Notes under the pieces: generated by a model
Databases searched by the model: none
What the model was told of the DNA's origin: nothing
What the model saw: the letters and a program-made list of their open reading frames with translations, nothing else
Assembly (NCBI GenBank): GCA_030248295.1
Contig: JASANH010000647.1
Location: 992,001 to 1,056,000 of the forward strand
DNA from: Mesodorylaimus sp. YZB2_4
Lineage: Eukaryota; Nematoda; Enoplea; Dorylaimida; Dorylaimidae
Direction: 5' to 3'
DNA: 64,000 nt
Shown here: one piece after another, positions 23,451 to 51,085 of the stretch
Numbering within the stretch: the first letter of the stretch is position 1
How the letters are laid out: each line of letters opens with the position of its first letter
Translations under genes and position numbers: made by a program

Positions 23451-24446
23451 TCACTGGCCACGATGAATTATGGCGATGTGACTTTTGATAAGCAGCCTAC
23501 GATTTGTACCAAACGGGCACAGCTGGCACTGATATCTGCCACGAAAGCGTACGGCTGTTCAGTCCATTCCTTGAGCTTGACGAGATTCATATTTACAATT
23601 GCCTTCTTGAATTGACGTACCGACCGGCCCTTGTGGCTGCTGCTGACCATTCCTCACATTTACCCGGTCAGCTGATCGCTTCACTCTAGCAGTGCTGCGC
23701 AATTTTGACTGGCCGTCATTCGATGTGCTAAAAACGTTGAATTGCAGAAGAGCATGGAGCGTCGATGTGTATCCTGCGGCAAGTGCATGCGTCCAGAACG
23801 CATTGTGCAGCACATGCTTCCATGGCCATGCGTGTGCTGCACAAGCAAAAGGATTGGCTACGCTATGCCTACTGCAAAATGTGCATACTCTCGTGTGCCA
23901 ATCCTCGCTTGCGAACACCCTCAGCCCCAAGGAAGGGGTAGGCCGCTTTTAAAAGTGTAAGTACTAGGATGGGGAACGAACAGGGTCAACTCCCTGGGCG
24001 TGGTCGTACGCGGGTTCCTCCCCTCCCTTACCCCTACTCCACCCAAACGATAGCGGAGTCAAAGGAAACGAGTGAGATAGCAGTCGCACTACGAATCATT
24101 CTCAGAAACGATTCTGGAATTGTTCTCGAGCATTGATCTCGAGAACCATTCTCCCCTTGAAATCGCACCAGAATGAGGACTGTTCTCAAGTCTTTCCTCG
24201 GCAGAAAAGTCTGCACCTTGGCGCTGATATTTATATGTAATATCCACTTAACTTTCACATCAGACTTTGAATCTGCCGTAGACTTATCTGATAACTCAAT
24301 AAGCAAAGGACTCATGTCACTTAGGGAAGAAAATAGCAAAAGTGGGGCAGAATTACCAAACATAATTAATCCGTCTGAGCTGCTAAGAAATGCCCCTTCG
24401 CCTGTGCGCTATCTGCAGTTGCAGTCTCAAGGGCATGTATCTATTA

Positions 24447-25359
24447 CAGTCAACTCCGCATAATTGCATACCCTCCGGACCAAAATTTTATATGCAATTA
24501 ACCGGTTTATTCCTTTATCCGAAACATCGGATATTTGCATAATATGCATATATGGATGAGTTATTCAATTAAGCGATGAAAGCTAGCTTGGTTTGCTCAA
24601 GCACATTAACTATGCTGAATTCAGTATTTTCGTAAAAACTCTTAATGACCACTACTTTAATCGCATAAGATATCAAACAAAACTCCAAATAAGCAGTGGC
24701 ATGTATGCGAACACCTATTTAGTGATCTTTTGCAAAGTAATATGTGATCGTAGTTTAAATGCTGCTTGTTCCTACGTTCAAAACGTCCTGCTCAATCTCA
24801 TATACTGTAATGCATCGAGACTGGAATTTTCAGGGCTCAAAAAGAATCTTTGCAGAATATGGACAGCATCCAAATCATCAGAAATCGATTTCAGCTTGAC
24901 TCAATCGTTGTTTAGACTTATCAATAACCTCAATTTTTTCATTAAAACTTAAATCCTTGCGGTTTTTCGAACTATGAAGTTAATTGGTCGATGCCGCAAT
25001 GGCAAACGCAAAGATCGACCTTCCAGAAAAGAACTAAAATTGACAATGAATGTTACTACTAAATGACGGCGTCGATTTTCTAATCTCATCTAATCTGAGC
25101 TGAAACCATGGGAAACTGAGAAGGTCGTTATTCGAATATCCGATAACGCTATGGAATTATCCGATGGCAGAATGCGTATGTAGCATATGCGTCGTTCTGT
25201 TAAAGGCTATGCGTTTATCCCATTTATGCATTTATCCGATATTCAATTATGCGAAGATGTTTAACATAGAGGGTATAGGAAAAGAATCGGGACTTAAAAA
25301 TATTATTCAAGAAAGCGATTTATGCGATTATCCGATATGCAATTAAGTGGAGTCGACTG
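24447..25359. mobile_element. pogo/Tc1-like MITE with TA duplication
   Basis: The 913-bp element begins CAGTCAACTCCGCATAATTG and ends with the inverse of CAGTCGACTCCACTTAATTG. It is flanked by TA at 24445-24446 and 25360-25361. The related site in unit 3 (around 55134) is empty and reads straight through with a single TA. Repeated ATCCGATA and GCATAA blocks fill the ends. It encodes no transposase and is therefore non-autonomous. It is inserted in the small ORF of the surrounding element. Confidence 0.85.
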
Positions 25360-25792
25360 TACGATAGGAAACGCCTACGCAAGAAAATTATCTCTCGCAT
25401 TAGCCGTGTTTGTTATCATGGCTTCTTACTCTAGTACTCGGTGCTCCTCTTCCCATGAATGAATACGGGAAGAGAAGTATTGAAATAAACAAAGATAGCA
25501 GTACTTTTGGCAAGCGTTAGACTGTCTATCTTTCTACAGTGGCATCTGGAAAATGTTTCAGTTTTATTCTCCCCTCTCTGGAAATCCTCTCCCCTCTGGT
25601 TATTCTCCCCCGCCTGGGACCCATTTGAAAAAATTTCTTCCCCAGGGAGAATTTCGAGGAATGTGTGATTTTCATTCAATGTGATTACGATGACAAAAAG
25701 GCTCCGCCATTTGAAAACTAAGCATCGAGAACTGAGCGAGAACTAATCTTCTGGTCGCAACAGAATGGAGAATTGTTCTCAGGTGAGAATTG

Positions 25793-25828
25793 ATCTCGGA
25801 GTGGGGACCCGGGTCCCCACTCCGAGAT
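25793..25828. repeat. Perfect 36-bp palindrome
   Basis: Each arm reads ATCTCGGAGTGGGGACCC and the centre falls at 25810/25811 with no loop. It lies in the right half of the CAGTCGCACT element and could be the meeting point of two head-to-head element ends. Confidence 0.85.
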
Positions 25829-28800
25829 CCCAATTCTAGAACGATTCTCGCGAGAACAGATGCAAAGTCGCACTAGAATGAGAACGATTCTCGACCAGTA
25901 GTGCGACTGAGGGACAATTTATCGAGAACGGTTCTAGAACCATTCTTGGACCTAGTGCGATTGCGGCCTGAATCGTCAGCAGACGCCGTAAATAAAGTTA
26001 TTGTAAAAATGGGAAGCCTTTTTCAGCTGAAGCCGCAAGCACTTTTCATTAAAGATTCAAAACCAAAACTTTGAGGAAAAATTTGCATGAATTTTCGAAT
26101 ATAAAAAACTTCTCATTATCTGGCCTTGTCCACACTTGCGGTGCCTTCGTAACGTTACGCCTATTCCTTCATAAACCTTCCGCAAAGTGCACAGCCCAAG
26201 CATGGCCATAGTAATGCAACCCTTCAATAGCCAGGCGTAAGAGAGAATGCGAAGCCGGCGAAACAAAAACTTAAACCGGATCAAGGCAAGTATTGCGAGT
26301 CTTTGCGGCTGAAACATCAAGCCAAGGGGCTGACGTCTCTCAGCCAGGGAAGATTACTAACAGGGTTCATACAAGAAACGAAAAAACGTTTCCCAGACAA
26401 TAATCCATTTTCCGATTATTTTCACTGTCAAAGCGCTACTAAATCATTTCAACTGATTTATAGCGCGATAAATAGATACACAGAAAAGGCGGCGATTAGA
26501 AATTTGAAACCTCAAAATGAAACCTCTCACAGTTGGCTCCACAATTCCCATTTTCCATTGTTTCCAGATTCTTCTCAGATTCCTTGACTTTCCCAAGCTT
26601 CCCCAATTTTCAACCTTGTAATGACCTTGCATAATCCTCATCACTGGTCATCATGGCAATACCACTGTATATGTGATTCACACACGGTACATTATACCAC
26701 GGTATATGTGAGATATGTGATATGTGATTCAAATATAGAGTAGTATTGCCAGAGGCCCACAAGACTGACGAGGGTCACATCACGCACTACCCACCTTGGC
26801 TAATGAAAAGACACTAAAAATGACAACTGGCCGTACTTACCAGCTTTTACTGGCGGTATCGCATGCTCCGAAACAGGCAGTCAGCATGGACATGATTTCA
26901 TGGTGGAAATCGTCCTCATTGTTCTCGTATTTATCAACCAGACTGCTCGATTCGTGTTTCAGCTTAAAGTGTTCAGCCAAAATCCCGTAGGAAACGGCAC
27001 GCCAACCGCACATCTTGCATCGATAAAATGGCCTGCGGATATGGAAATTATAAACATGCTCAAAGAGCCGAGAGGGCGGATGACACTGCTTCCAATGAAA
27101 TTTAATAACCTTCTTGCACAAACCACATTCAATCGTCTTCTTCTCGGCTTTTTCAATTAGCTTCATGCAATGGGTTTTTCGAATTTTGTACAAATTAGAT
27201 TTGATTGCCTGTCGACCAGCCACTTTGAGTCTTGGCTTGACTTTGGACCTGAAGCAGAAACAATGTTGCCCACCAAGATTTTAGGCATTCTACCAGAGCT
27301 CACAACTGGGTGCTTTACTCGTCACAAAACATATCGCAAGGAGCTGAGACAGGCATATTTGGTATTATACCATCACCCACCTGAACAACAAAACACCTTT
27401 CCGTTGATTTTCCAAAACGAAAATGTTGGCTTAACTTCTTTCTAATTAATATACTGTGCCTGAGCAAATCCTATCCTTGGATTTTTGGCTACAATTATTC
27501 GACCCTTCGACCGACGTAACCATAGTTATCAAAGAATTTTCTCTAAATGCCCTAGTTTTCTATCGCGAAAACTTTTTGAAATTTCTAACTAGACGTCGCT
27601 TAAATCGAACTTCCAGGGCGTGTCAGGACCTATGACTAAGGGCACCTAATAAGTACTGATTTGGACTGACTGAATGAGCAAATATGATTCGGGGTCTAAT
27701 CATATTTGCTCGAACGATTTAGAAATGTATCGAGGCACCTGGAATTAGAGAGTGCTCTAATAAAGATCCCTTCCCGAAGCCTATGCTATTCACATCAGAG
27801 CCCACAATTTCAGCATCCCTGGATTGCTCTCCATATCACCCAGTCCAATATGTATGATACCCACCGAGGTTTCCCCTTTGATCTTCCTTTGATATTGTCT
27901 TTACTCGAATCGAAACACGCTGCCAATGCGGCCATAATTTCGTCGTGGAAATCGCTTTCGTGATCGTCATAATTGCCTGCACCGCAAACTTTATGTTTCG
28001 ACCGTATATGATTTCGCAGCTCTGTCGTTGTCGTCCTGACTTCGCCGCATATTTTGCAAGAACACATCGGATATCGAAGATGCTTCGTGAAAACGTGCAG
28101 TCTAAGCTTAGCTGGCACGTTACTTTGCACCAAACTGAATTCAACGAACTCATTGCATTGAAGGCATTGAATAGACTCGCGAGGTTTTATCTTTTCGATC
28201 AGTTTCCAACAATATTGCCGCCGAATTAACGCTAAATCATTGTTTTCTGAAGGTACGCTGAAAAAGGCTTTATTATTGGATTGAAGATTGCAGCTTGTTC
28301 ACAAAAGGGTTTTCAAATATCTATGTACTGTATATCGGAGAACCCACATTACCATATTATAACACCGGAAACAGTCTTATAAGTCTTGAAGGGGCGAGGG
28401 TCCTTGGGTGTTGGGTGAAAAAACCAAGATCTACAAGGTAACGCACAAGAATATGTGACGCATCATTTCACACCATCGGAGAGGGATTATTCGAAAAGTA
28501 ACCAATCAAGCACCAAGCCAGTACTGACCGATCTGGCCTTGAGCCTGAGTCCCGATCCCGATCCGATTTAGGGGTGTCGATCCGCCGGATTCCGAGCCAG
28601 CTTTAAAAAAATTCACAACCAATGACATATCTGACACCAGGTCCTCCCGATACTGATTCTTGTTTCCTCTATGAAAAGACATATAGGAAAACCGACCAGC
28701 TCAGTTTATGTGGATTTTGCTGGAAAACTGGCTTATGGCTTATTTTGCTCCGCACAAAATAAAACGGGAGATCCGGACTTCAAACGAGGTTTCTATAGCG

Positions 28801-29357
28801 CTTTGCATAGGGTTGGTGTGCTGTAGAGCACGACGATACAGCAACACAGCGGGACTGCAAAACAGTGCGAGCGAACTCGGAGTGAGTAACCCATGGTCAG
28901 CCAGGCGTACAGAGCACAGAGAACGTCATGGCCAGACTCAAACGCAGACCAACCTGCTGTTTCCCAGCCATGCCAAGCATTCTGACGGGCGCCTTTGGCC
29001 GCTACACTATGTACCAAGGTGGCAGGGTCTGCTATACACTTGACCAGCATTGTAAAGTAGGTTGACCCGTTCTAGCCAAAGCCCTTGTGGATAAGAATTA
29101 GCAAGCCCTTACCTTTGTCCAGTTGCGTTTTCTCCCAGAATACTTGCTGAACACGACCCCAGAGCAAACTTTGATTGATTCGACGCCCTTGACTTTGTCT
29201 CTGCCAAATATTCCCCGCCATTTACCAACGCTAGATGCCGACGATGAATCTCGATATGACGATCAACATCGCTTTGGCTTGCAGAACTCAAATAAATTAT
29301 TCCATCGCCACCCAAGACTTGACATGTTTCGCAAGTATAAGCATTTTTCTTTTCCAT

Positions 29358-30868: not shown

Positions 30869-33800
30869 ATGGAAAAACATATCGTCTACATGTGCAAATT
30901 ATGCCATTTTTTGGGAGTTGACGGACAATTGTGGACGAATTCCATGCCGAGTCAAGAAGAAATCGATCGTCATGGCGAGATTCATCGATCACACGTTCAA
31001 TTGATTGAAGACGATACGATAAGCGATGGGTCGTCGGCGGAAACAAGAGAGAATGATACGATTGCAATGTCGACACCAGCCTCGCCAAATATTCATCCTG
31101 GCACGAAGTCCAGTCGATTGTCTGGATCGAATGGAGGAAAGTGAGTCATTTTTACTGCGGTGTACCACAGGTGACGAATCAAGATTTTTTCAGTTCAAAA
31201 CACACACACAAAAATGGCTCGAAAAAATTTTGAAAGAGCGAAGTTTCCTGCTTGATTTTTTCAAGACCAAAAAGTGAGCTTGAAAAATCAATTTTTCAAA
31301 ATTTAGATTTTTCAAGTTTCAAGATGTGAGATATACTGCTTTTGTGGCTGATTGTGTGTAGGAGATCAGGAATTTCTGGCTGCTGATAACAAGCTTCGTG
31401 GTACTGCATCCCAACGTAGGCAGCAAACTAGTGCATCCAATGCCAATCGACGCCCGTTGGTATTGTGCTGTACCCGATGGGAAGAAAAGCTTCAAATTCG
31501 AGATGTCATTACTTTCGTCCAGTGGAATAGGGAGTAATCGAGCCGCAGTTGCCCGAAATGAACGTGCTTCCTCTGCCAACCTGTATTTCCTTGGGACATG
31601 GCGGCTGTCTTATGGCTACAATGCACCTGAGCGAGAGAGCACAAGGAGGCGCACAACGCACCAAGCTCTGACCAAGCAACAATTACCATTCATATAGTAT
31701 TTGGCTCCATGAACTGTCCTTGCAGCCAAGTAGGACATTACCATACAGGAATTGCATTTTCCCGTTATCGCAGGCCGCTCCTCACAGCGATGAATGCACA
31801 GCCAAAAAATCTCGCCCGTTGAAACTTAAAAACTTGGAAGAACTCAAGGTTTCCAGTACATGAACAATCAAGTCAGGGCTCCCACGAAACCTGAATGCAC
31901 TGAAAAACCTGAAAAACCCTGATTTTCAGTCCTCACCTTGAAAACCCTGAAAAAACCCTGAAATTCTGGATTCTCCGCCCAAAAAACCAAAAAAACCTCA
32001 ATTTGCGTGCGCTATCGCGACCAGCGTCGTCCTTTCTAGTCCGAATTTTGAACTTGGAAGGTAGAGTCATACGTCGTCCGCGTCAAATATTTATCATCGT
32101 TACCAAAAGTTTTGATTTTTTGGCTTATTATGAGCCTTAAAATAGCCTTATTTTCAGTTTTTAAAAGTTCCCTGCAACCCTGCACCCTGGAACCCTGCAA
32201 GATTTTAAAAACTTCTGTGTTTCAAACTGCAAAAAATCAAGAGCGAGAAAAATCTTGATTTTGCACCTGTGGTACACCGTATTTTCACTCTTAGTGAAGG
32301 TAGTTTGGCGGGTGGTTGTTTTGATGGCCTTTCAAGTTTAAGCAACAGTAAAATCAGATTTCAGTTATTTATTCTTATTTCTATTGAATTCAGATCGCAG
32401 ACCATGATGGGGGCCTATATTCGTTCAATATTGGGGAATCGTGTCAAAAATAACAGAGCCTATTGCAAATTGTGCGGCGAGGAAAAGATAGTTGCTAATT
32501 TTGGTTGTCTGAAAACGCGATTCGTTTGTGACCACGCACAGCGTCACCTTGGCAAGGAATTGTTCGCCTGTCGTCAATGCCAATATCGATCAACCACCTA
32601 TAACGCAATGACGATCCATTTAAGGAGCATACATAAATTACACTGGCGTACTAAATTTGTTATTGATAACACATTCGATCACGAATGGGAGATTATGGAA
32701 ATGATTGGCTGTTGTTTCAGTTCGCCTCAGCAACAGAAGGATGCCGGGCAAAGGTAAATTCCTCAGCAATTCTGGTGCATGAAATGCGAATATTTGTTGT
32801 ACTTTCAAGCGTCAAATTAGAGAGTAGGTGGAGAATAGGTTTGAAATCTACTGAACACGAGTGAGTGGGGCTGGGAGGGAAGCTCCTATTCTGAGTGTCC
32901 CTTTTGACATTACGAATAATCTGATTGGTGAATAATACACCATGACCTTTAACGCCATGCGCCATCCTAGCATCTTATGTTGTCGAATTAGGAACACATA
33001 GTAGGTGGATGCCTCACTGATCTCCCCCTGTGCATTAGTCATACTGTAAACGCCACCCTCACACATTAAGCGATGTGTGTTATTTGCACATGGGTAGCCA
33101 CGAATCATCCAGGCGATCATTATAGGTGCTAGCTGTTGGATTATGATCGTACCTTAATACGTTCCAGGATTATATTGGCAAACGAAGTCTCGGGGAAACA
33201 TGCAGCTTATATACCTGACAAGCTCGATAGAACTCGAAAAAACTACTGTCATCAGATTGGTCGAAATGCCGAGGACAAGAAAATTTTATGTCATGTGTGC
33301 GGGGTTTTCATTCGACTTGGTGCAAAAAATTTGTCCGCGCCATACCTTCTAATGAATCACATTATATCTGTTCATCTTCGTAAACCAGTCTTCAAATGCA
33401 AAAGGTGCGAAAAAACAGGCTCATCGCGAGGGATTATGGCTCGACATTTGAAAAATGCGCATTCGATCTCGTTGTCTGGTAATTACGAGAATCGAGAAAA
33501 CGATTTTCATGATGAAATAATGGCCATCCTTACGACGTGTTTCGATCCCGATGGCCGTGCTAGAAGATACATGGACGCAGAAAAGAAGATGGGGTAACCA
33601 AATTTTTGTGCACCTCGTGTCTGCTAGCACTAAAATCGTCCATGCATTATTTCAGCACCTTGATGGTGTTCAATAATAGAAAAAGCGCTCAACAACTGAA
33701 AGCGAAGCAAAGTGACGGGAAATTGAAAGCTATCAGCCTTCTGCAGAGGCGTATGCACAATGTGCGGTCGGTTCTGAGCCAGGCCACACGCGATGCAGCA

Positions 33801-34211
33801 TTGTGTCGCCTTTGTTCAAATACAATACGAACCCCAAACAAATCCGGATCGGGGCCATTTATTTGTCACGTCCAAAATGTGCATTTGAAAAAGCTTATTT
33901 ACCATTGTCGAAAGTGCTCGAGCAGCTTCGCCGATTGTGATCGACTTCGACGGCATCTGAAAACAGTTCATGGCATTTCCAAATCGATTGGCCATTTTGA
34001 TTATTCCGAGGATTTCCACTTCGAAATGATAAATCTTCTATCACAATGCTTTGGCGATAAGGATATTGGAGGGATTTACACTAAATCTGATTTGCAGGGC
34101 TTGGAGACCAAGACAGCGCCAAGCCGAGGACAACAATGCAATTTTTGTCCGTTCGTTACTAAAAATGATATGCTAATGGCAAGACATATCGCTATTATGC
34201 ACCGTGTGTGA
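30869..34211 (+). CDS. C2H2 zinc-finger protein, plus copy 1, intact
   Basis: Four coding exons, 30869-31140, 32394-32753, 33168-33593 and 33656-34211, join in phase 2 throughout into 537 aa. Exon 1 has the long finger C9, C12, H34, H38 (starts MEKHIVYMCKLC). Exons 2, 3 and the first part of 4 each carry a long finger (C-x2-C-x19-H-x3-H, C-x2-C-x19-H-x4-H and C-x2-C-x17-H-x4-H) and a classical finger (C-x2-C-x12-H-x4-H). These are followed by EIMEMIGCCF, FHDEIMAILTTCF and FHFEMINLLSQCF. The protein ends with one classical finger (CNFCPFVTKNDMLMARH) and stops five codons after its last histidine pair begins. It has eight fingers in total. All ligand cysteines and histidines are present, so this copy looks functional. 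It is paralogous to the divergent minus gene, which has one module fewer. The family is not recognised; nucleic-acid binding is inferred from the fingers. Confidence 0.85.
31155..32285. mobile_element. Inverted-repeat element in intron 1
   Basis: The left end (GGTGTACCACAGGTG at 31159) and right end (CACCTGTGGTACACC near 32265-32279) are inverse copies, and the similarity continues inward (AATCAAGATTTTT). The ends are followed or preceded by TA-containing sequence, as for Tc1/mariner-type MITEs. Parts of its right end and of an internal block (CAGCCAAGTAGGACATTACC) recur in intron 1 of unit 2 (49850-50160), so the insertion or part of it predates the duplication. No coding capacity was recognised. 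Confidence 0.65.
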
Positions 34212-34590: not shown

Positions 34591-36578
34591 CTAGCCATTG
34601 TTTAGAAGTCGTGTGGGGAAAATAGCGGCGCTTGGCACAATCTATGAAAAATTTACACTACAATTTTTAAGATTTTCATGCAGAAAGCAACACCTCTCGA
34701 TGACTTATTGGAACGACTACGATTAGTGATTCTTAAACTACTGTAGGAAAAGTTTCTATAGTAGGTCAATTATTTTACTCCCATCACAGATTTTGACCAC
34801 CTGCTCTTGCTTAAAACGCATAATAGTCCGAAGCAGGGCCATAGTCACGCAGCCCTCCAACAGGCAGTAGTCATAACTTCACTCATGAAAGTTCTCGCAG
34901 CGAGAAAGCTATTATTTCAAAAAAGCGTATCACGAGAAATCTCTAAGCCATCCAATGCTGACAGTGGCTTATGATGCCTGGTCTACTCGACCACAGTCGA
35001 TTGGGCAAAAGTGCTGGAGCAGCGGTTGGACTGGGCAAACATGTAAAATCATGACTGGCCAAAAGCCTAGGGGGCTATTCATAACATTTACCCTGTGGGG
35101 GGGGGGGGGGGGCGGATGACGCCAAGTGGACGTCCACTTAGAAATTGGTGAGAAATAGCTCGGAAAATCGACGTTATTATCAATAAATACTAGATATTAA
35201 ATTACTAATATTCAAATAATCAAACGTCGATCCAAAGACTCTTCGATGGATGACTCAGATCGATTATATTCAAGTTTTTAAAACATTTTATCCTTTGCCT
35301 TGTTTTCCTCAGGCGGATAAACGATTTTTGGGGTACAGCCAGTGTTTTTGTCCCTCAAATCAGGTACCTTCTGAAATAAAAAGAAGGCGTAAGAGACGAA
35401 GTCGGCCAGAACTCTGACGTAGCGAGTTTGCGACTATACCTGCCGCTGAAACATTACCCTGACGGGCTGACCCTTCCTAGCCGGGGGTCGATTACGCTCC
35501 CCTGCTCGCCATGGTCCACTTGCGCCAGAACTTACATTTCCGTTACTGAGATGTCCGAGACGATGCTGACGGAAATGTTAAGCTTTTGAGCTGCCAGCAT
35601 CGACTGATCCCGACTCAACGTGAATGCCGATCTCGATCTGGCTGATTCTATTCAAAAAATGAGATACTGAAATGGACTGTCACTGTCTATGACCACTCCA
35701 AGAAACTCAGAAGAACTAACCTGCAGCTAAAGCGGGATTCAATACCAACTTTGGAGAAAAATTGTGATTTTTCAATCTATTATTTTCGAACAGAAGGAGC
35801 GCAATGTGACAGATGCGGCAGTCGGATCAGATGGAAGACCAGTCCTCATCATATTGGCGGATCGGTCGATGCTGGGAGCAATGCTTATTAGGATGAATAT
35901 TTGCTTCAGAGGGAACTGTTAAAATGGACGTCCATTTTTGGGGGAGGGTAAAGGCGAAATGGACGGAAGGTGGATAGGGGGAGGAGGGAGTCAAAAAAAC
36001 GAGTATTTTGGTGGACGTCCGTTATGGATGGCCCCTAGGGTCATGTATGGTAGAGTTCTAGTTCGCGGTCTATCATGCTTGGGGTCTGCCTTTCACTCTA
36101 GAAGCGCAGTTACTAGCGGTTTTTCGACTCGCATTCAGGCGAGTCATTTGTGCGATGTTCAAAATCATCCTTGAGTGCGTGTATACCTGGGCTCGGTGAT
36201 GGGCTAAAAAATGTGCAGAAATGAGCGTAATGCTGTTTGGTGGGAAGGTATTTAAAAATCCAAAAAAAACAGCTCAGATTAGAATTAAAGAACAGAAATA
36301 GAATAAACGTAGTGGTCTCAAGATGGGTCTTCCTGAGGAACTGAGTTTCCCCAAAATATAAACCCCTACCCTCCGTGGGCCATAAGGGCACCAGGCGATA
36401 CGGGGAAACCTAGTCGGGCAATGTAGGTAGGAAACTACTGAAACCGAGCAACGCTCATACATAAGCCTGTAAGCATCACGATGCAATATAAAGGCGTAAG
36501 ACTTGTTCGACTCTTATCTTCGATCAAGAAATTCTAAGACTCATAAACTCTTACGACCTGCTCATATTTTTCACCTGC
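34591..36578. other. Inter-unit spacer, mostly mobile DNA
   Basis: This spacer between unit 1 and the R2-like fragment shows no gene. It holds an inverted-repeat element (35066-36040) and unassigned sequence at 36041-36578. Confidence 0.5.
35066..36040. mobile_element. MITE-like element with CCTAGGGG ends
   Basis: The left end CCTAGGGGGCTATTCATAAC and the right end, read in reverse (CCCTAGGGGCCATCCATAAC), are inverse copies. GGACGTCC blocks lie at both ends and in the interior (about 35127, 35927 and 36015). A related end is at 59412 (AGGGGCCATCCATAAAGG). A G-tract is at 35097-35112. No open frame of interest is seen. Confidence 0.6.
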
Positions 36579-37693
36579 TTGGCTTATACTCGCCATCAAG
36601 TTTCGGCATTCTCGTCCAGGAAGTTCCACAAGATCGAACAATGGCCAAAAACACTTTCCTCCATTCTGCCCAAGTGGCTGGAAGACAGAGAAGAATGGCG
36701 GCACCCACACAGTCCGTTATCTGGTGGCGGCGTCTTTAAGCAGTGCGCTTACGGCCTAGCGAGTCGGGGCGTCGTATTTTGGATTGCTACGTCGTCTTCA
36801 AAGAAAAATAGTGGCATGCCTTCACCCGTGCAAGACCCAGGACCGTCTTTTGGACATGGCCCTGGTCGCGATTCGGCCAGGCTCGTGATCGTTTGTCCAA
36901 TCCAGCCGCCCCTGATATGTCCCATCTGCACTTGCCCATTCAAATCAGCGAAAGGACTTTGGACCCATTGCTCGGCCAACCATCGAACCACGCACGTCGT
37001 GCTGACTTGTCGTCATTGCGAACATTCGATATAACCAACATCACTATCTTTCGGCAGTATGAATGCCCACGTTAGGAAATGTCCGCAGCGAGACTCGTAT
37101 CAAACTGCGTCACAACCCATGGCCCCAAGCGCCAATACCGTGCCTTCCACATCAGCCTCTGGTTCACTATCCCAAATGGATGGCAACTTCCAATGTCCAG
37201 ATTGTCAGACATCTTGGTCCACCAAAGTTGGTCTATCACAACATATAGACGGCACAAACATCCAGATCAATGTAATCAAGACCTACCCGAGCCGAAAATG
37301 ACACGTCAGATATGGTCTGAGGAGGACCTTCATTTCATGGCTCTAAAGTATCATGCATTCAATATCGATCTGAAGCCGACTCAAAAAGCCAGGGCTTTAG
37401 CTAGCCCTGAAAGAACTAGCGAACATGTTCGAATCGCATTGAACACCAAGCGATTTAAAGTGGCATACGAAGCGTTTTTGTCGCGAATATCTAGCGAGAG
37501 CGACTCGGGCGACGATCTTCAGACCTCACCCGATGTCGACTCCATCTCGAACAACACCACCCATGGAACGCCCCTTCCAGAAAGAAAAGAAGATATTCTT
37601 ACTCATCTCTCCGAACTCGTCAAAATCGATATAGAGAAAACCATTTTCGTGTCATGTGTCCCTTCATCCTCGAGCGTGTCATTACAGATATGA
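36579..37693 (+). mobile_element. R2-like retrotransposon N-terminus (fingers plus Myb), broken
   Basis: The frame from 36579 encodes a first finger (CPICTCPFKSAKGLWTH with a later H), then a second finger starting CRHCEH that is cut by a TAA at about 37033 but continues in frame to NAHVRKC. A third finger (CPDCQTSWSTKVGLSQH) is followed, after a frame change near 37250, by RRHKHPDQC. Next comes a Myb-like segment (IWSEEDLHFMALKYHAF and RTSEHVRIALNTKR). Three fingers and a Myb motif before the reverse transcriptase is the N-terminal plan of R2-clade, site-specific non-LTR retrotransposons. No reverse transcriptase follows before the next unit at 38 kb. The frame is damaged by one stop and one frameshift. 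A domesticated or merely look-alike host finger gene is possible. Confidence 0.55.
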
Positions 37694-38185: not shown

Positions 38186-41100
38186 TCACTGGCCACGATG
38201 AATTATGGCGATGTGACTTTTGATAAGCAGCCTACGATTTGTACCAAACGGGCACAGCTGGCACTGATATCTGCCACGAAAGCGTAGGGATGTTCTGTCC
38301 ATTTGATGAGATTCGTATTCACAATATCCTTCTTGCATTGACGTATAGAGCAGCCCTGGTGGCTGATGTAGACCATTCTTCACGTTTACGCCTTCCTTCC
38401 GCTTTATTCCAGCAGGGCCGCGCAATTTTGACTGGCAGTCCTTCGATGTGCTAAAAGTGTTCAGCTGCAGAAAAGCATGGTAGGGCGACATGCATCCTGC
38501 ACCAATTGCGTACAGGACGCATTGTGCAGCGCATGCTACAACGGCTAGGCATCTGCCGCGAGCAAAACTGCACTGCTTGCTGTGCCCACTGCACGTGCGC
38601 ATATGTCAATCCTCGCTTGCGAACACCCTCAACTCTCAGCAGACCCCAGCAGACTGTAAGCGCAGACATGGGGAACAAACAGGGGGGCAACTACCTGAGG
38701 ATAATGTCGCTCGTGGGGGGGGGGGGGCCTCCTCTCCGTTACCGCTCCCCTACCCGTACGATAGTCGAGTAGAAAAGAAGCATGCCCCAACGGCTGATGA
38801 GGGTCACAGAACAAATCACGAGCTACCAACCTTGGCTATGAGGAGACAAAACACCTAAAAATGACAGCTGGTACTTACCAGCTTTTACTGGCGGTGTCGC
38901 CCGCTCCGAAACAGGCAGTCAGCATGGACATGATTTCATCGTGGAAATCGTCCTCGTTGGTCTCGTATTGATCGATCACACTGCTCGAATTGTGTTTTAT
39001 CATAAAGTGATAATTCAAACCCCTGTAAGATATAGCGCGATGATCGCACCGTTTGCATCGATAGTATGGCTTGCGGATATGATAGCTATTAACATGCTCA
39101 AAGAGCCGAGAGGGTGGATGACACCGCTTCCAATGAAACTGAACAATCTTCTTGCACAAACCACATTCAATCGTCTTCTTCTTGGCTTTTTTAATAAGCT
39201 TCATGCAGTAGGTTTTTCGAATTTTCGACAAATTAGATTTGATTCTTCGACCTGCAGTCGTGGCTGGCACTCGCAGTCGTGCAGTGCAGTCGTGCACTTG
39301 CAGCCGTGGCGTGACTTTGGACCTGAAGCAGAAGCAATATTGCCCACTTACATTTTAGGCATCCTACCAGAGGTCTCGCAACTGAGTGCCTGAGCAAATC
39401 CCAACCTCGAATTTTCGTGTATAATTATTAGACCCTTCGGCTTATTTTCACCCCACTTTCAATCGCTGCGCCTTCAAAACAACGGTGCGAAATTTCAAAG
39501 TAGGCATCACTAACCTCGAGCAAAATCCAGTCTGCTGTATATAGTTTTGTCTTATAATATATGCAGTAGGTATTCTTTGCCCCATAGCTATCAGACAGAA
39601 AACGATTATTCGATTATTAAGGCATTTTTCAGATGACAAAAAAGTCGGCATTTTGCAGCTTGTCGTTCCATTGCGTTTTGGCCCAAGCCTAAGGACCTCA
39701 AACAATTCAGAGGGGCTTCGAGGCCTTTGGAGTAAGGAAGTGGTACACAAATGTCCATTGCCATTTGCGTCAGGCCTCACATTTTCAGAATCCTTCCTGG
39801 GCCTTCAATAGATTGCATGGGAATACTCTACACATTAGCCCATGTGATACCTACCGAGGTTTCCCCTTTGATCTTCCTTTGGTATTGTCTTTACTAGAAT
39901 CGAAACACGCTGCCAATGCGGCCATAATTTCGTCGTGGAAATCGCTTTCGTGATCGTCGTAATTGCCTGCACCGCAAACTTTATGTTTCGACCGTATATG
40001 ATTTCGCAGCTCTGTCGTTGTCGTCCTGACTTCGCCGCATATTTTGCAAGAACACATCGCATATCGAAGATGCCTCGTAAAAACGTGCAGTCTAAGCTTA
40101 GCTGGCACGTTACTTTGCGCCAAACTGAATTCAACGAACTCATTGCATTGAAGGCATTGAATAGACTCGCGAGGTTTTATCTTTTCGATCAGGTTCCAAC
40201 AATATTGCCGCCGAATTAATGCTAAATCTTTTTGTTCTGAAGATGTGCTGAAAAAGGCCTTATTATTGGATGGAAGATGATAACTTCTTGTTTTTAAAGG
40301 GTTTTAAATTTCCGCATAGCAGAGGCCCCACGTTGGCGCATCATACTCTCATTAAGACGGAAAGAGTCATAAGTCTTGAAGTGGCGTGGGAAGGTGAAGT
40401 GTGAAAAGTGAGGGTGTTGAGTGAAAAAAACCAAGAGTTATGTAGGATTGGCGTATAGGAATCTGTGACGCATCATTTCCCAACATCGGAGGGGGATTAT
40501 TAGAGAAGGGGAATCAATCGAGCACCAATACATGACCGATCTGGCCTTCAGCATGGACTCCCATCCCCATCCGTTCCAAACTAGATCAAAATGGGCCGAT
40601 CCAGTTTGGAACGGATGGGTTGTCATTGCTGTTGAATTTCTTAAAACACTGGACCCTGGACACTTAAAACACCAGTGTTTTAAGAAATTCAACAGCAATG
40701 ACATAACTGGCACCACGTCCTCCCAATACTGATTCTTGTTTCCTCTCTTAAAAAGGATACAGGAGAACTGACCGGATGGGGATGTTTCTGGAAAACTGGA
40801 TTATGGTATACCCTGCGGACTAAAACGGGGAATCAGGATTTCAAGCTAGGTTTCCATAGTGCTTTGAATAGGGTTTGTGCGCTCTACAGCACAAAGGTAC
40901 TGCGGGACAGCGGGACTGCAGAGCAGTGCCAACTCGGAGTGAGTAACCCATCGTCAGCCAGGCGTGCAGAGCACAGAGAACGTCATGGCCACGTTCAAAC
41001 CCAGGTCGACCTGCTTTTCCCAGCTTTCCCTGTAAATGCCAAGGAAACTCTACAGTATGCCTGCGCCTCTACATATGCTCTATGCCCGTGACAAGAAAGC

Positions 41101-41472
41101 TCAGACGCCTTTGACTGCTACACTACCAAGGCGGCAGGGGTCTGCACTTGACCAGCATTGTAAAGTTTGTCAATACACACATTCTGGCCAAAGCTACTAT
41201 GGGTTTCACTAAATAGCAAGCCCTTACTTTTGTCGAGTTGCGTTTTGTCCCAGAATACTTGCTGAACACGAGCCCTGAGCAAACTTTGATTGATTCGACG
41301 CCTTTGACTTTGTCTCTGCCAAATATTCCCAGCCATTTACCAACGCTAGATGCCGACGATGAATCTCGATGTGACGATCAACATCGCTTTGGCTTGTAGA
41401 ACTCAAATAAATTATTCCCTCGCCACCCAAGAATTGACATATTTCGCAAGTATGAGCATTTTTCTTTTCCAT
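38186..41472 (-). CDS. C2H2 zinc-finger protein, minus copy 2, intact
   Basis: Four coding exons, 41472-41228, 40247-39855, 39322-38879 and 38450-38186, join in phase 2 into 448 aa without interruption. The layout is one long-spaced finger in exon 1, two modules of long finger plus classical finger plus DFHDEIM motif in exons 2 and 3, and one terminal classical finger (CQLCPFGTNRRLLIKSH). All zinc ligands are present. Exon 3 starts with a 36-bp in-frame insertion relative to copies 1 and 3, built from GCAGTCGTG-type repeats (39253-39310). Introns are compact compared with unit 1. The gene stands divergent to the plus copy 2, as in the other units. A 5' UTR exon ending at 42138 is likely. The family is not recognised; this is the best candidate for a functional minus-type gene. 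Confidence 0.85.
40566..40619. repeat. Inverted repeat, 17-bp arms
   Basis: The left arm CCCATCCGTTCCAAACT (40566-40582) is perfectly inverse to 40603-40619, with a 20-nt spacer. It lies in intron 1 of the minus gene of unit 2. The corresponding part of unit 1 (28540-28590) carries CGATCC-rich sequence without this hairpin. Confidence 0.75.
40621..40703. repeat. Perfect hairpin, 32-bp arms
   Basis: Arms 40621-40652 and 40672-40703 are perfectly inverse with a 19-nt loop. The right arm matches the unit 1 intron sequence near 28598-28630, but the left arm has no counterpart there, so the hairpin arose by local inverted duplication in unit 2. Confidence 0.85.
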
Positions 41473-42545
41473 TCTTTACTCCTGCATGAACGAAGAAATC
41501 ATTCTTTAGGAGCAAGACCGACTGACGGGCGGGATGAAACACAGCAGGTTCAGTGATTAGCTACGAGACAGATAAAATTCAGACCCAATTAACGGTCTGC
41601 ACATGGTTCTACGACGAGTAGCTACAGTAACTCCTACAAGCTTGGCAGACTGTTCGCTAGTACCTGCTGAACAGGAGGGGCTCAAGCTCGCTAAAAAGTC
41701 AGTCATACTGTGTATTTCAAAAAAATGAACGTGGAACAACAAAAGATTTCAGCCATGGACCAACAGATTAGAGCTTGCTTAGGTTCAGGAGGTGCCTTCG
41801 GTTTTCTTATGCTGCAGTTGTTTGACTAGGAAGTGCACACCGCAAAATAAGGAAGTAAAAAATCTAGAGTGTCGGAATAATACATTTTAGGCTGCTTTGT
41901 CTTGCTCGCCAATTTATTAGGAAAATTTTAACAAGATATATATATATATTATATACAATGCGCTCATACCCGAAATTTTCTTTCCCTACTCAAACAAAAT
42001 TTGGTCAACTACAGCAAGACGGCTCGACTAATTTGCGATAGTAACGTGGCCTAATTAGGGCATGCCTTGCGCATAAGTGTGCAGAACGATCACTGCTACC
42101 CGGGTGGTTGGTAGGAGCTGATGCGCAGGTTACTTACCTTCACCACAAAAATTGGCGGCAAATTTGAATATTTTAGAATTGGATTGGAACTAATCCTGTG
42201 CAAGGTATGTACATATTTAACTTTGTGAAAAAGTGAGGCGAGGCCAATCTCAAGCGATGGGAGGCCACCACGCCACGCCACTACGGGTCTGCTTGACTTG
42301 TGCGTAATGACGCCACGTGCGGGTAAGCGTGGCGCCCAGACGGGAAAACGAGACGCAGGGGCAAGGGTTCCCGCCCCGCTAGCGGCATTGTTTTGGGGCG
42401 CTACCTGCCCGCCTTGGCTACATATTATTTGCTTCGGCCCTTGTTCAGTCGGACCTCGGCCGTCCCCCCCATTTTAGTGCTGGATTTTGATTTTGCCGTA
42501 ATGAGAATCGAGCAATGACAGTTTCCTGCTTACGTACTGTAAGTC

Positions 42546-44088: not shown

Positions 44089-46498
44089 TATGGTTGAAAA
44101 GAATTTTATAGTTCATCATCGTCACCGCAAAATTGCTTACTGCTTTTGCTGTAAGATTTAGCGAGGGGGAGATTTCGGTTCTACTCGATTAGTGAAAACT
44201 ATGTGACTAAGAAAATTTAGTTTCCCTGGTAAGAAACTTTTTTGAAAGCATTAATAAAGAGTGATAGGGACTTGTGTGCGCACAGCATAGAAAACTTCGC
44301 GTAATTGCAAACTTTTTTCTCAAAAATCCATCTGGACTTTGCGTAATTGCAATATATCGGATAATCGCAAGTTCGGCTAATTGCAACTCTTTTTGGCGTC
44401 CCGAGCGGCTGCAATTATCCTGTGGGTACACCTCTGGGTATATTGACACCAGTTTGCAACTGGGGTGATATGCTCATTTTGAAGACCCAGCCCTCCAAAA
44501 ATTTTGTTCTTTTTACTAAGCGATACAGTATTGTCCAAGTTTTCCACCAGTCTCTCTTTTTGCTCCCATAAGTACTCAATTCTTGGGCATTTTACAAAAA
44601 CGTGGTAGACATCTTTTTGTTTATCCAGTCCATGCCGGCTGGCGGGAAAAACTGCGACGGCTGGGGCACGGCTTGTGGCGTGTTCTTGGCGCTGCCTGGC
44701 GTAACTCTGGCGGCAGAAATTGCCTCTCGCTCCACTAAATATCGTATCTGTCCTGTTTCGGCACTTGTTCAGCTGCCATCCCTATTATCCCCAGCTGCTA
44801 TCCCTTTTTGATTGTGGCTTGATTCTGTTGTTGTCCTAACGCAAATTAAACGTAAGCAAGTTAGTTCGAGCATTTTTTACCCATCGCATTTCGCAGAATA
44901 AATAATTTGTAAGTTTTCTTCCCATGCAAGTATCCGCTTTTAGAAAATATGGTTTCAAGATCGTTGAAAAAATATTGAGTTTACTCACGACAGCTGAGGC
45001 CGATCAATATTGACTTGGTTGGCGCTTTATTAGACTTTTCGGCACTTTCAGGCGCTCCCTAAACTACATAAGTCCGACAGGTAAGAAAAATATATAAGTC
45101 CGAATCTGGCACAACGTGTCAAGTGCACAACGTCTGGACCCGCTCGGCCAGCCGGAACTACATAAGTGCCAACTTTTCTTTGTTGACCAACGAATTTTCT
45201 TCGTTCTTGCGTTGGATTGATTGAAAAACAAAGACCCTAAAAGTAGACTTTTACATCGTTGCCACGGCAATTTTTTTTACATTGGCCTCGACCAATCTGA
45301 CCATTGAAGGTAATATTTTACAATCGCCGCGTCCTCCCAAAAACTGAGCTTCTCTGTTCATCAACCTTCCCCAGACTGCTAAACCGTGATTTCACGTGAT
45401 AAAAAGGGACCCCCACGTTTTTTATACCGATTTCTAGACACATAAGAGCATCGAATCTGCCAAAGTTTGATCCAGAAGTCGCATCGGTCGATGCTGGTAG
45501 CCGCTTGACTAGCCGTGACCAGTTGCTCGCGCTAGCCCACCTTTGTCAGATCTCGTATTGGTGACTGATGTCCACCCAAGGGCATGTGGCTCTTGGGACT
45601 TTGTCGGCTGAAAAGGTGTCACAGCAGGTTTACTGCCATAACCCCTAAAATGATAGGTTTAGGAAAAAAACGAGATGCCACAGGCCTCATTGTCGATTTT
45701 TTTTAAACGGCAGAAAAAACAGTTTCTTTGTGAAAACATTCAAATTTATAAGATCAAGTAAAATTTTGCTCATGAAAATTAGCGTCCCCTAAGATCTTGC
45801 GTAGAAATGCAAATCTCTGTCCTTTTCAGAAAAAAATGGAAAAAACCATGGTGTATATGTGCAAATTGTGTCAGTTTTTGGGGGCCGACGGACAATTTTG
45901 CGTGGATTCAAAACCGAGGCAAGAAGAAATTGATCGTCACATCGAGACTCATCGATCACACGTTCAATTGCTTGCGGGCGATGCGACTGCAAGCAATGTG
46001 TCGTTGACGGAACCGAGAGAAAATGACGTGGCTGCCATGTCGACACGGGACCCGCCAAAAATTCATCGTGGCACGAAATCCAGTCGATTATCTGCAGCTA
46101 GTAAAAAGTGAGTCAGGGTCCCGCACGGGTATGAAAATCGTACCCTACCAGTCCCGCTGGACGACCTGTGTACCCGTACCCATACCCCTACCCGGCGGAC
46201 CTTACCCATACACGTACCCGTAATTTTTCAAAAAATCTATGAATACCCATACCCGTGCCCGGTTTTTCGATAAATGTTCGAATGGAGTATCAAAGCAGAA
46301 AACTAATCAATTCATGAAAATAATTATAGAAAACCAGGGTTCTTAACAAAAGTGGGTCAATTTTCATTCAAAAGTTTATTCACTATCGCAAGACAAAAGA
46401 CTTTCTTGAAGCAGTAATCTGAGCCAAATGCTTTAGCGCTAAAAGCCTGAATAATGTCTATTGTGAGTAATGTATTGGTTTTCTTGTTTCCTTGGAAA

Positions 46499-46922
46499 TA
46501 GCGTTCGTTCGGGATCCTGATCCCGATTCCGGTCGGGATCGCCCCTCCCGAATCCGATCCCCATCCCGATAAAAAATGGTCGGCATTGAATGTTGTGGAG
46601 GATGTGTGAAGAAGGGGAAGGGGAGAGGATGAAATCTGGAAGGGAGTGTTCCCGAAGGGTAAGCTGGAAAAACTTTGGTAGATGATTGAACTGGTAAAGA
46701 GGAAGTGAGGGATTTGTTTGCTAATTGGTGACTAATTCTAGGTCTTTTTGCTTGCATGATTTTGAATGCCATGATGAATACTGCGCAAAAAAGTTTTTAG
46801 CTCTGTATTTGCTGGCTACTTGGGGCGTGTTGTAGGTTACCTACATCGAATTAAAAGTGAAAAAAAAACACTATAAAAATCCCGATCCCGATCCCGAAAA
46901 AAGTGATCCCGAACGAACGCTA
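46499..46922. mobile_element. Nested hAT-like MITE
   Basis: The 424-bp element has perfect inverted ends TAGCGTTCGTTCGGGATC and is flanked by the 8-bp duplication CTTGGAAA (46491-46498 and 46923-46930). It sits inside the larger hAT-like element and is therefore younger. CCCGATCCCGA repeats fill both subterminal regions. It is too small to encode a transposase. Confidence 0.88.
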
Positions 46923-47689
46923 CTTGGAAATAAACGTCTCAATTTACAGTAAACTTAAAAGCCTGAAGCTGACAACAACCTGGCAATCTAAAACTGTGAA
47001 TGAAACTGCATTCATGTTGGAGAGAGTAACGAAGTTGAACTTTACAAGGAGTGCCTTTTAAAATGTTTAGCTAGAGAAATTTTTGCTCGAAATGTTCGAC
47101 ATGCAATTATTCGCCATGTTGAATACTAACTACATATGAGTTACTATCAAAATTTTTTATCAGAGCATACATTTTGGGTGCGGGGGGGGGCGATGACAGC
47201 ATTTTCATTTGTGCAGTGTTTTCATCATGCGACACCCAGTTTCATCAGGGACATGTATAGCATTGTAACTACTGTATCCGAGAAGAAATTATTTTCTCTC
47301 CATAAAGAACTGCACGAATACTGAAATAGTTACGTGTTACTTGGGGCAGCAGGGTTCCACAGGGGGTCCGGCCTGGTAGATATACATACTGTACTGTAAG
47401 TGAGAGGAGGTTATCCTTAGTAAAGGATTGCGAGCGTCGCAAATACAGTAGGCAAGACAAGCCACTCTCTTTTTTGACAAGCCACTAAAAATGCTCTTAA
47501 TTACAGCAGAAAATGTAACCTTGGGGTGGCTACAGTTGGTAAGCAAGTGGTCTTAATGCTCTTGATTGCAGCAAATGTGCGGCAAGTTTAATATTGAGCG
47601 ATATTTGCCTAGTCAAACCTTAGTGCCGCATGTTGTCGAAATGACCCTGGCTGACCTAGGGTGGCTTCAGTAGGTAAGCAAGTGGTGAC

Positions 47690-47845
47690 GATCAATTGGC
47701 GAGCAATTGACCTAGGCGAACAATTGCTCACGAAGAAATGACCTAGCGAATAATTGTTATTGGCGAACAATTGCTGGCGAACAACTGCCCGCGAACAATT
47801 GACCGCCAACAACTGTAGGCGAACAATTGACCGGACACCACAAAA
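47690..47845. repeat. Degenerate GGCGAACAATTG minisatellite
   Basis: At least eight variants of GGCGAACAATTG, or its shortened and mutated forms, follow each other with spacing of about 14-20 bp, several followed by ACC. They lie inside the larger hAT-like element and could be transposase-binding subterminal repeats of another insertion. Confidence 0.65.
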
Positions 47846-49408
47846 CAAGCTAGTTCGCGTGAAGTAGCCAGTTTCGCAACAATCAGACGTGTCTGATCGT
47901 GAGTCGCAGGACATGCGTGCAAGAAATTCTTATCCTACATCACACAACACTGCTGTCCTAATCTAAGGACCCGCTGTCCTTAGAGGAGTGAAAGTGACTT
48001 GGATCCTGCAAATAGTCAAGGTTGGCGCATATCTGTCATATGCAAGTATGAACTCCTAGCGCCACACCCTTGTTTTCCCTTAGGCCCCCCTCAGATAGGT
48101 AATCAATTAGTCAGTCAGTCAGTCGTGTCGAGTCATGTGGCACCCCTCTCTAAGGGTCTTTATGTCCTTCACGGATGGCGCCTCAGCAGCTTTTTGATAT
48201 AAACCAGGTTCATTTTTGCAATAAACAACCATTTTCAAATCTCAAAAACGCTTAAATATCCATATCTTTTTATCAGTATATCCGGGTTGTTAAAAGATAT
48301 ATATAACCTGCTTTCTTTGATAATACACGCCCTTCAAGTGCCGCGTGTACATTCCAAAAGAAAACAGATAGTAGGAAGACATGGATATCCCAAAAGATAC
48401 GGATACGGATATGGATATGATTTCGATATCGATATGTCAAATGATATCGATGAGATATAGATGTGGATATGGATATCAACAGTGGTCACAAGTATCCTCG
48501 AAATAGCAGACATCAGAACTGTTTCGCTAAAAACAGTTACAAAATGCACAAGATTTAAAGTTGCATCGCTGTCATGAATACGACTTTGAAAAATTAAACA
48601 AGAACGAATACCCGTACCCGTACCCGCCGGGTACGGGTGGGTACGGGTTTGGGTTTGGGTACCCATGCAGGACTCTGAAGTGAGTCATTTTTCTTGAATT
48701 CGTCACCTTTGTATGATGCATAAATTGCCATTCAAAAATTGAGGAAGAAACTTACTTGGCAATTTTAGTTTTAAATAAGACATGACCAAGATTAGAGTCT
48801 CAAGAAATAGAGCTCGAATGAAAAACAGTTTTTTGCTCTGCTTCTTTTCCTTGCAATTTACACGGTTTATTTCCCTTGGTTTTATTATTTTAGCCTTTGT
48901 TTCAGACACCGCTAACTTGAGCCTAGAGGAGCATTTGAATTGAGAATGTGAAGCCCAACCACTTTCAGCATTGAAACCTATAATTCTGTGGATGGACACT
49001 TTTCTGACACAGTTTACGATGGGGAACCATTGACTGACTGCAACTTGATCCTGTCCTACAAGATGCTGCAACATGAAAAACTGTCAAACTAACCATCGAA
49101 TTTCCATCGGCTACTTTGAATTTGATTTTGTCACTTGTGGTACACCGTAATAGAACATTTAATTCCTGGCCAAGATTAGGACTAAGCTGTATTTGGGACT
49201 CGTTTTCACGCTCAACCATGAATAAGCTTTATCGCAAGAAATATATTCCCGGAATCATCCATGGCCAGGCGCAAGTTACACCACTGTGCATTCCAGGGTA
49301 CATATTCCCTGGCAGTTTGGCAAACGGGTTTTCAAGTTTTAAGGCAACAAGCAACAGCAATAAATGCTAAACTCCGATTTGATTCATCCGTCTTTTCCTC
49401 TCTTCAGG

Positions 49409-49469
49409 TTTTTTTCTACGATCGAAATGGCGACTCGAAAATAGTCGCCATTTCGATGGTAGAAAAAAA
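49409..49469. repeat. Hairpin with 27-bp arms
   Basis: Arms 49409-49435 and 49443-49469 are inverse copies with one central mismatch and a 7-nt loop; the core is ATCGAAATGGCGACT. It lies in intron 1 of plus copy 2. It could be a miniature foldback element or a hairpin-RNA source; nothing decides between these. Confidence 0.75.
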
Positions 49470-51085
49470 GAGACACTGATATCCTACGCCTGAGGCACCT
49501 CTTTATAGCCTCAGACCAGTAACCAAACCTGAACATAAGTGGCCTCAGACAACAAAGGAAAACCAGGAAATCTGTAGCTGTGCGATTATTTTTGTCCTGG
49601 AAATATTTGTGGCCACTCATCTTTTTTCTTGTTTCAATGATTAACGGTGAAAGATAACTGGATTCCGATTGATGGGTGTTGTTAAACAAACAATTCTCTA
49701 TCCAGCCATATCCTACTTATTGGTCTCTGTTGCACGGATGAGGAAAAAATTCACAGATAAGGCGCCAATACCCAACTTTTTGCAGGTGTCCGATTATTTT
49801 TGTCCCCCCCCCCCCACTGTATTAGCATTTGACTCCACGAGCTGTCCTTGCAGCCAAGTAGGACATTACCAAACAGGGATTGCCTTTTCCCGTTATTGCA
49901 GGCCGCTCCTCACAGCGATGAATGCCCAGCCACAAAAGCAGTAAATCTCGCCTGTTCAAACTTGAAAACTTGAGAGTAATCAAGATTTTGAAAACTTGGT
50001 TTTTTAAAGTTCACTTTTTTGGTCTTTAAAACAAAATCAAGCTAGAAACTGGTGTCTCAAAAAGTTTTTCAAGCCTTTCTCTGTGTTCTCTGTGTCTCTG
50101 TGTGTGTGAAAAAATTAGAAGTGAGAAAAATCTTGATTTTGTCACTGGTGGTTTACTGTCCTTTAACCCTTTGACGTAGTTCGGCGGGCGTAGGTTTTGA
50201 TGGCCTTCCAAGTTTTAGCAACAGTTACAATCAGATTTCAGTCATTAATTTTTTCTATTGAATTCAGATCGCTGACCATGATGGGGGCCTATATTCGTTC
50301 AATATTGGGCAATCGTGTTAAAAAAAACAGAGCCTATTGCAATTTGTGCGAAAAGGAAATGACAGTCGCTGTTTCGGGCTATCCAAAAACGGGATACGTT
50401 TTTCACCACGCACAGCATCACCTTGGCAAGGAATTGTTCTCCTGTCGTCAATGCCAGTATCGCTCAATTACCTATAGCGGCATGACGGCCCATTTAAGGA
50501 AAAAACATAAATTGCACTGGCGAAATGAACATGTTGTTGATAACACATTGGATCACGAACGTGAAATTATGGTAATGATTGTTCGCTGTTTTAAATCGCC
50601 TCATCAACAGGATGACGCCTGGGAAAGGTAAGCCCCTTTCGCAATTCTGTTTCATGAAATGTGAATATTTGTTGTAGTTACAAGCAAGCGGTCAACGCGA
50701 GGTCAAATAAGAGTAGCGTATCAAAAATAGATTTGAAATCTTCTGAACAAAAGTGAGTGGGACTGCGAGGGGAGCTCCTATTCTTGGCATCTCACTTGAC
50801 TTGTCAAATGATCTGGTAAATGAGTGAAAGGTAGAAGTTTTGAGAGACTGCGCCTTTCGCCTAAAACAAGAATGCAAGTTTTGTTTGTTCGTTACTAAAA
50901 CTGATATGCTTATGACGAGACATATTGCTGTTATGCATCGTGTGTGAAGGTGCTTTGGATGCAATGCGAGTGTGCTAGCAGTTTTTTCTACAGGCCATCA
51001 GTTCTCCTCGTGATTTGATTTAGTGGACTGTTTTTTCATTTCTTATGAGTTTTGACTAATGATTTTTCGTTGTGTGACTGTCCAC

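Follow-up and report, generated by a model that had tools for sequence, protein, structure and literature searches.

The 64,000-nucleotide window analyzed here (Mesodorylaimus sp. YZB2_4, contig JASANH010000647.1, positions 992,001 to 1,056,000) contains a gene, P1 (30869-34211, plus strand), built from repeated modules of ~100 residues, each comprising a long-spaced finger 1, a classical finger 2, a linker, and a tail resembling FHxEIMxxLxxCF. This module is probably the DNA-binding unit of the HIM-8/ZIM-1/2 kind, composed of two zinc fingers and a C-terminal domain (ZF1-ZF2-CTD); in this nematode it has expanded to a large family of clustered genes. It is filed as a HIM-8/ZIM-type predicted DNA-binding unit, and its proteins as a multi-unit variant that would not be orthologous to HIM-8/ZIM. 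What is new here is the amplification, the presence of one to three units per protein, the extra terminal fingers, the intronless copies, and the fast-changing recognition residues. The original prediction, made from the sequence alone, had considered the module apparently undescribed and its order absent from any named domain. Both statements have to be dropped, since order, fold, and tail match the finger-finger-tail ZF1-2-CTD unit of Caenorhabditis elegans HIM-8, ZIM-1, and ZIM-2 (8YV9, 8YVB, and 8YVA, respectively), which a structure search names as bound to pairing-centre DNA.

Module anatomy of P1

The P1 gene model encodes 537 residues in four exons, without any internal stop and with introns that are all GT-AG and of phase 2. 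Its features are the following:

30869-31140, plus strand: exon 1, ending in phase 2, with the ATG, the N-terminal finger (30893-30994), and a linker rich in Ser and Thr after it
32394-32753, plus strand: exon 2, module A, with finger 1 (32464-32547, H-x3-H), finger 2 (32569-32634), and tail EIMEMIGCCF (32689-32718)
33168-33593, plus strand: exon 3, module B, with finger 1 (33289-33375, H-x4-H), finger 2 (33397-33462), and tail FHDEIMAILTTCF (33505-33543)
33656-34211, plus strand: exon 4, module C, with finger 1 (33804-33884), finger 2 (33906-33971), and tail FHFEMINLLSQCF (34014-34052)
34137-34202, plus strand: extra C-terminal single finger in exon 4, the stop being at 34209-34211

P1 is therefore ordered as N-terminal finger, modules A, B, and C, and C-terminal single finger. 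The spacings first read in the fingers are present in P1 (C-x2-C-x17-19-H-x3/4-H in finger 1 and C-x2-C-x12-H-x4-H in finger 2), and the tail motifs quoted at the outset all lie in frame. The view that every internal exon encodes one module holds for exons 2 and 3, but module C shares the last exon with the single finger, and exon 1 encodes a long N-terminal finger. As the internal module exons are in phase 2 on both sides, whole exons could have been duplicated without breaking the frame. Independent support for this type of splice model comes from two paralogues at other loci, L025 and L030, in which an N-terminal finger, two modules, and a C-terminal finger are contained within one open frame. 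At a further locus (L045, 2840-3265, minus strand), an N-terminal-type finger exon ends in the tail-like AIEALVERCFGDEE, as though the N-terminal finger were the leftover of a whole module.

Relationship to the HIM-8/ZIM unit

All PDB chain sequences were searched with a profile of 39 distinct modules. The top of the list is taken by multi-finger proteins that match in several short pieces, while near-full-length matches in a single stretch are reported for 8yv9_A (E-value 5.6e-10, rank 22) and 8yva_A (1.4e-6, rank 58), the only two among the 60 chains listed whose best-matching stretch extends past profile position 77. The best PDB match of a consensus-like query composed by eye is also HIM-8, over the fingers only. 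When the finger stretch of HIM-8, excluding its tail, is added to the profile, HIM-8, ZIM-2, and ZIM-1 are each matched in one stretch. The HIM-8 E-value is then partly circular, and the values of ZIM-2 (3.6e-13) and ZIM-1 (9.9e-8), whose own letters are absent from the seed, are boosted by the HIM-8 fingers. With the same profile, the alignments run through the tail, placing the module F-H-x-E-I-M-x-x-L-x-x-C-F opposite FQKIMNACF in HIM-8 and FSDVWNKCF in ZIM-2. A phmmer search of the PDB with a single module ranks HIM-8 16th (E-value 0.39), which is too weak alone; a 64-residue stretch of finger 2 plus tail returns generic fingers only, and profiles restricted to the tail or to finger 1, also too weak, do not retrieve HIM-8/ZIM.

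AlphaFold predicts a tail helix in both models, at residues 82-97 in model 1 (block pLDDT, the predicted local distance difference test, of 92 and 85) and 82-96 in model 2 (96 and 83). The tail, proposed originally as a helix or a partner-binding site, is hence predicted to be ordered after finger 2 and not disordered. The idea of a separate partner-binding site is given up, as the HIM-8/ZIM tail, judging from the PDB entry titles and general background, is part of the DNA-binding unit. The three structures probably come from the work of Li and colleagues (Li et al. 2024), who are reported to include the CTD in that unit. In the fold comparison of model 2, ZIM and HIM-8 are set apart from Kaiso by 2-4 Z, and the Kaiso alignments end at model residue 90-91. 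As modelled, the whole module appears to match the HIM-8/ZIM ZF1-ZF2-CTD unit in both fold and sequence. A new, undescribed domain was considered as a candidate and is rejected in view of the profile, sequence, and fold matches to HIM-8/ZIM.

Pfam analysis agrees with the initial expectation in that no family was observed to span the two fingers together with the tail. All matches of seven stretches of the window fall under the listed cut-offs. The fingers of P1 match zf-H2C2_5 with 32.8 bits, above the cut-off of 27, and P1 matches PF17003, "Actin_micro", a putative actin-like family, with 26.1 bits (cut-off 27). Across the 39 modules, PF17003 (21 out of 39, E-value ≤0.01) and generic finger families are the commonest hits, and the PF17003 match spans finger 2 and the tail in the rows for which ranges are given. 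Wherever bits are given, the PF17003 match stays below the curated cut-off. PF17003 does not match the HIM-8 and ZIM-2 stretches at an E-value ≤1, and a genome search with it reports two places, both below cut-off. Papers retrieved for it deal, by their titles and the openings of their abstracts, with cell mechanics, and neither search accounts for the match. The name of this family may be misleading, and some of its members may be related finger proteins.

HIM-8 and ZIM-2 were placed in a midpoint-rooted tree together with 40 modules (ZIM-1 and ZIM-3 being left out); the two C. elegans proteins group together, outside all 40 modules, on a branch of 3.5 changes per site. No one-to-one HIM-8/ZIM orthologue was seen among these 40 modules, and no single-unit HIM-8-like gene was recognized in three further module loci (L045-L047), which is no proof of its absence. 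As far as this tree shows, the amplification appears to fall in the lineage of this nematode. A literature search covering titles and the openings of abstracts returned no published expansion of the module family. Finger 1 has the H-x3-H spacing in 20 out of 40 modules and H-x4-H in the other 20, which form nearly two tree groups, with weak support. The H-x3-H type includes module A as well as HIM-8 and ZIM-2; the H-x4-H type includes modules B and C. Given that the tree splits by finger-1 spacing, the difference between A and B appears older than the gene amplification.

The modules resemble HIM-8/ZIM-1/ZIM-2 in the finger-finger-helix order, the H-x3-H finger 1 of half of them, the classical finger 2, and the tail ending in CF. 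They differ in a sequence identity of only 14-26%, in the number of units, which reaches three in one protein, in the additional fingers at both termini, and in the 97 module places. HIM-8/ZIM proteins possess one ZF1-2-CTD unit, on their C-terminal side, as the PDB residue numbers also indicate. Here, P1 contains three units, a second gene of the window, M1, two, and a third, P2, one, with further fingers at both ends, including a C-terminal one in P2. Kaiso (ZBTB33), a vertebrate BTB protein with three C2H2 fingers and an ordered C-terminal extension, has a similar fold up to the residue mentioned above; however, P1 is devoid of a BTB match (Pfam, E-value ≤1), its units contain two fingers, and the end of the tail helix is unmatched. 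The KRAB-ZNF, ZAD-ZNF, and PRDM9-type proteins are fast-evolving finger families that share with the present one a clustered amplification and recognition residues changing fastest. In contrast, no KRAB, ZAD, or PR/SET domain is among the Pfam matches of P1, which contains finger pairs with a tail helix and not long arrays.

Amplification, divergence, and possible function

The assembly searched comprises 145 Mb in 1067 contigs, and the match counts are lower bounds. That the module is a real, conserved repeat, as originally proposed, stands far above chance: a first module query returns at least 69 genome matches (E-value ≤0.001), a second at least 68, and 39 distinct full modules were aligned, in which the eight zinc ligands are invariant and the tail F and C are conserved in 37 and 35 out of 39, respectively. 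Merging the module queries yields at least 97 distinct places on 21 contigs (25 on C17, 20 on C9, 15 on C70, and 6 on C116), of which 83 are 240 bases or longer. According to the match ranges, the tail is reached in all but three (C265:71079, C17:831564, and C17:1053235). A third query, a 396-residue intronless protein, returns at least 83 matches, a few of them at additional places. Four intronless two-module copies were found: L025 (790-1977, contig C97) and L030 (799-1974, contig C40) are open, while C11:389155-390336 and C11:391563-392761 are broken by stops and a frame break. The DNA upstream of L025 and L030 looks alike by eye, so that both may stem from one retrocopy, later duplicated. 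The genome is identified as that of a nematode by 133 matches with PF01484, the N-terminal family of cuticle collagens, which is not known outside nematodes.

Residue changes were compared in 12 sister module pairs, taking positions -1, 1, 2, 3, 5, and 6 of both finger helices, in the standard numbering scheme, as recognition positions. Differences amount to 61 out of 144 at these positions, 143 out of 573 in the rest of the fingers (Fisher p 7.6e-5; p = 0.006 without the eight fixed zinc ligands), and 87 out of 405 in linker and tail (p 3.4e-6). Nonsynonymous divergence (dN) over a shared synonymous divergence (dS) is 1.07 at the recognition positions (bootstrap 0.75-1.49), 0.45 in the rest of the fingers, and 0.37 in linker and tail, so that the recognition dN exceeds that of the finger framework by a factor of 2.4 and that of linker and tail by a factor of 2.9. 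Not all pairs behave alike: in two of the 12 (L023/L030 and L017/L019, second modules), recognition positions change more slowly than the remaining finger residues. The most changeable positions are 2 and 3 of finger 2 (9 and 7 of the 12 pairs), and position -1 of finger 1 changed little (2 of 12). In module B of the P-type genes L011 and L010, the recognition positions differ in 9 out of 11 columns, as compared with 1 out of 33 in linker and tail. This pattern looks like DNA specificity diversified on a conserved frame, and is not proof of positive selection.

Most likely, the family members are chromatin proteins with sequence specificity, whose target sites in DNA are long or repeated. By analogy with HIM-8/ZIM, the two zinc fingers of each unit would grip DNA, and the tail helix would pack with them, fixing both as one rigid body. 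Each unit might bind a site of roughly 12 bases; the HIM-8/ZIM pairing-centre motifs are given as 12 bases in PMC9071541. A protein with two or three units could then recognize one long composite site or bind several repeats of one motif, and paralogues may diversify toward different or changing chromosomal repeats, as do pairing-centre proteins or KRAB/PRDM9-type fingers. The process served could be meiotic pairing and site marking, repeat silencing, or transcription.

Among the rival explanations, lineage-specific transcription factors or repeat silencers, similar to the KRAB or ZAD families and using a HIM-8/ZIM-type unit without a meiotic role, have nearly an even chance of being the answer. 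The family is large and clustered, its contact positions change faster, and a non-long-terminal-repeat (non-LTR) reverse-transcriptase-like frame, seen by eye, lies near the cluster (61295-62981), but the 12 Pfam families listed for the 537-residue P1 (E-value ≤1) include no silencing or transcription effector domain. A genuine role in meiotic pairing centres is unlikely; every paralogue would then mark the pairing centre of one or more chromosomes, tether it to the nuclear envelope, and recruit Polo-like kinase as HIM-8/ZIM do. The proteins share the type of DNA-binding unit, yet 97 module places exceed the expected need of nematode chromosomes, and no one-to-one orthologue was seen among the modules of the tree. 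HIM-8/ZIM proteins, which in meiotic prophase bind repeat motifs at chromosome ends and the nuclear envelope, contain a Polo-box docking site phosphorylated by CHK-2; here, a Polo-box-like Ser-Ser/Thr-Pro occurs in the N-terminal exon of two out of eight genes (P1 and L045, not P2, M1, M2, M3, L025, or L030). A genome search for the Rad51 family reports one strong locus, C181:72422-73633 (L039-L042, four exon matches), which we take to be RAD51, and two weaker matches, so that DMC1 appears absent from the assembly. The clustering recalls the four C. elegans genes in one operon mentioned in PMC9071541, and the lack of DMC1 recalls Caenorhabditis, for which, along with all sequenced Clade IV nematodes and Oscheius tipulae, PMC8455136 reports DMC1 loss. 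Not finding DMC1 fits recombination-independent pairing and does not show it; with the loss spread over several nematode groups, it would suit different placements and functions.

Two other explanations concern the nature of the module and its spread. Ordinary C2H2 fingers with a chance-similar tail, resembling HIM-8/ZIM as any finger pair would, such as that of Kaiso, are improbable: among the listed chains only HIM-8/ZIM are matched through the tail, the fold comparison of model 2 separates them from Kaiso, and the tail F and C are conserved. Still less credible is a part of a transposable element, or spread by retroposition. The four intronless copies, with two broken and two sharing similar upstream DNA, would suit it, but both modelled genes, P1 and M1, contain introns, all of phase 2, and the copies of the window are local repeats 10-18 kb apart. 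The 97 places, often several per protein and with contact residues that change fast, suggest, as compared with the four-gene HIM-8/ZIM family of C. elegans, that the pairing-centre proteins are members of a DNA-binding family that is larger and evolvable, and provide natural material to follow the co-evolution of units with repeat motifs and the tuning of specificity by the tail helix. A bolder version, which we consider rather doubtful, would make HIM-8/ZIM a minor offshoot of a much bigger family of nematode DNA-binding proteins. In the present nematode, where DMC1 was not found, some hundred units of this family, diversifying fast and often joined in twos or threes within a protein, would serve as composite "barcodes" on chromosomal repeats for homologue pairing or repeat-array recognition.

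Other family members and neighbouring sequence in the window

Six family genes or remnants are present in the window, M1, M2, and M3 on the minus strand and P1, P2, and the P3 remnant on the plus strand, arranged head-to-head in three pairs (M1/P1, M2/P2, and M3/P3). Splice models cover P1 and M1 (without its last exon), and M2, P2, and M3 are given as frames and fingers:

23463-29357, minus strand: M1, with exon 1 (29357-29113), two module exons (28257-27865 and 27248-26841), each ending in phase 2, and a C-terminal finger (23528-23463)
38189-41475, minus strand: M2, with an N-terminal finger (41448-41350), modules in frames 40303-39854 and 39354-38878, and a C-terminal finger (38263-38198)
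45836-50944, plus strand: P2, with an N-terminal finger exon from 45836, a single module (50338-50592), and a C-terminal finger (50873-50938)
52371-57128, minus strand: M3, with an N-terminal finger (57104-57006), a module (55786-55532), a frame-broken second module, and a C-terminal finger (52436-52371)
58973-61423, plus strand: P3 remnant, with an N-terminal finger exon bearing a stop and a lost cysteine, a module fragment (60263-60490), and a finger-1 fragment within 61103-61423
27912-27950, 39902-39940, and 55532-55570, minus strand: tail FHDEIMAALAACF, in frame
38908-38946 and 53576-53614, minus strand: tail FHDEIMSMLTACF, in frame
26870-26908, minus strand: tail FHHEIMSMLTACF, in frame

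The M exons recur as direct repeats with starts 12-16 kb apart; for the P exons the distance is 10-18 kb. As divergent M/P pairs recur along the cluster (23463-61423), the amplified unit appears to be the head-to-head pair. The M3/P3 pair is decaying: the frame of M3 breaks between finger 2 and tail of its second module, and P3 carries the stop and the lost cysteine.

An Rfam scan of the window returns no match. Open frames at 36492-37690 (plus strand) contain a finger, CPICTCPFKSAKGLWTHCSANH, that does not look like the module family and resembles those of non-LTR retrotransposons. At the cluster edge, non-LTR reverse-transcriptase-like frames are recognized by eye at 61295-62981 (minus strand) and 63061-63999 (plus strand). 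Lastly, the region 4681-16022 contains neighbours that appear conserved by eye, namely a short-chain dehydrogenase, a PICK1-like PDZ/BAR protein, a Rab28-like GTPase, and an RRM protein.
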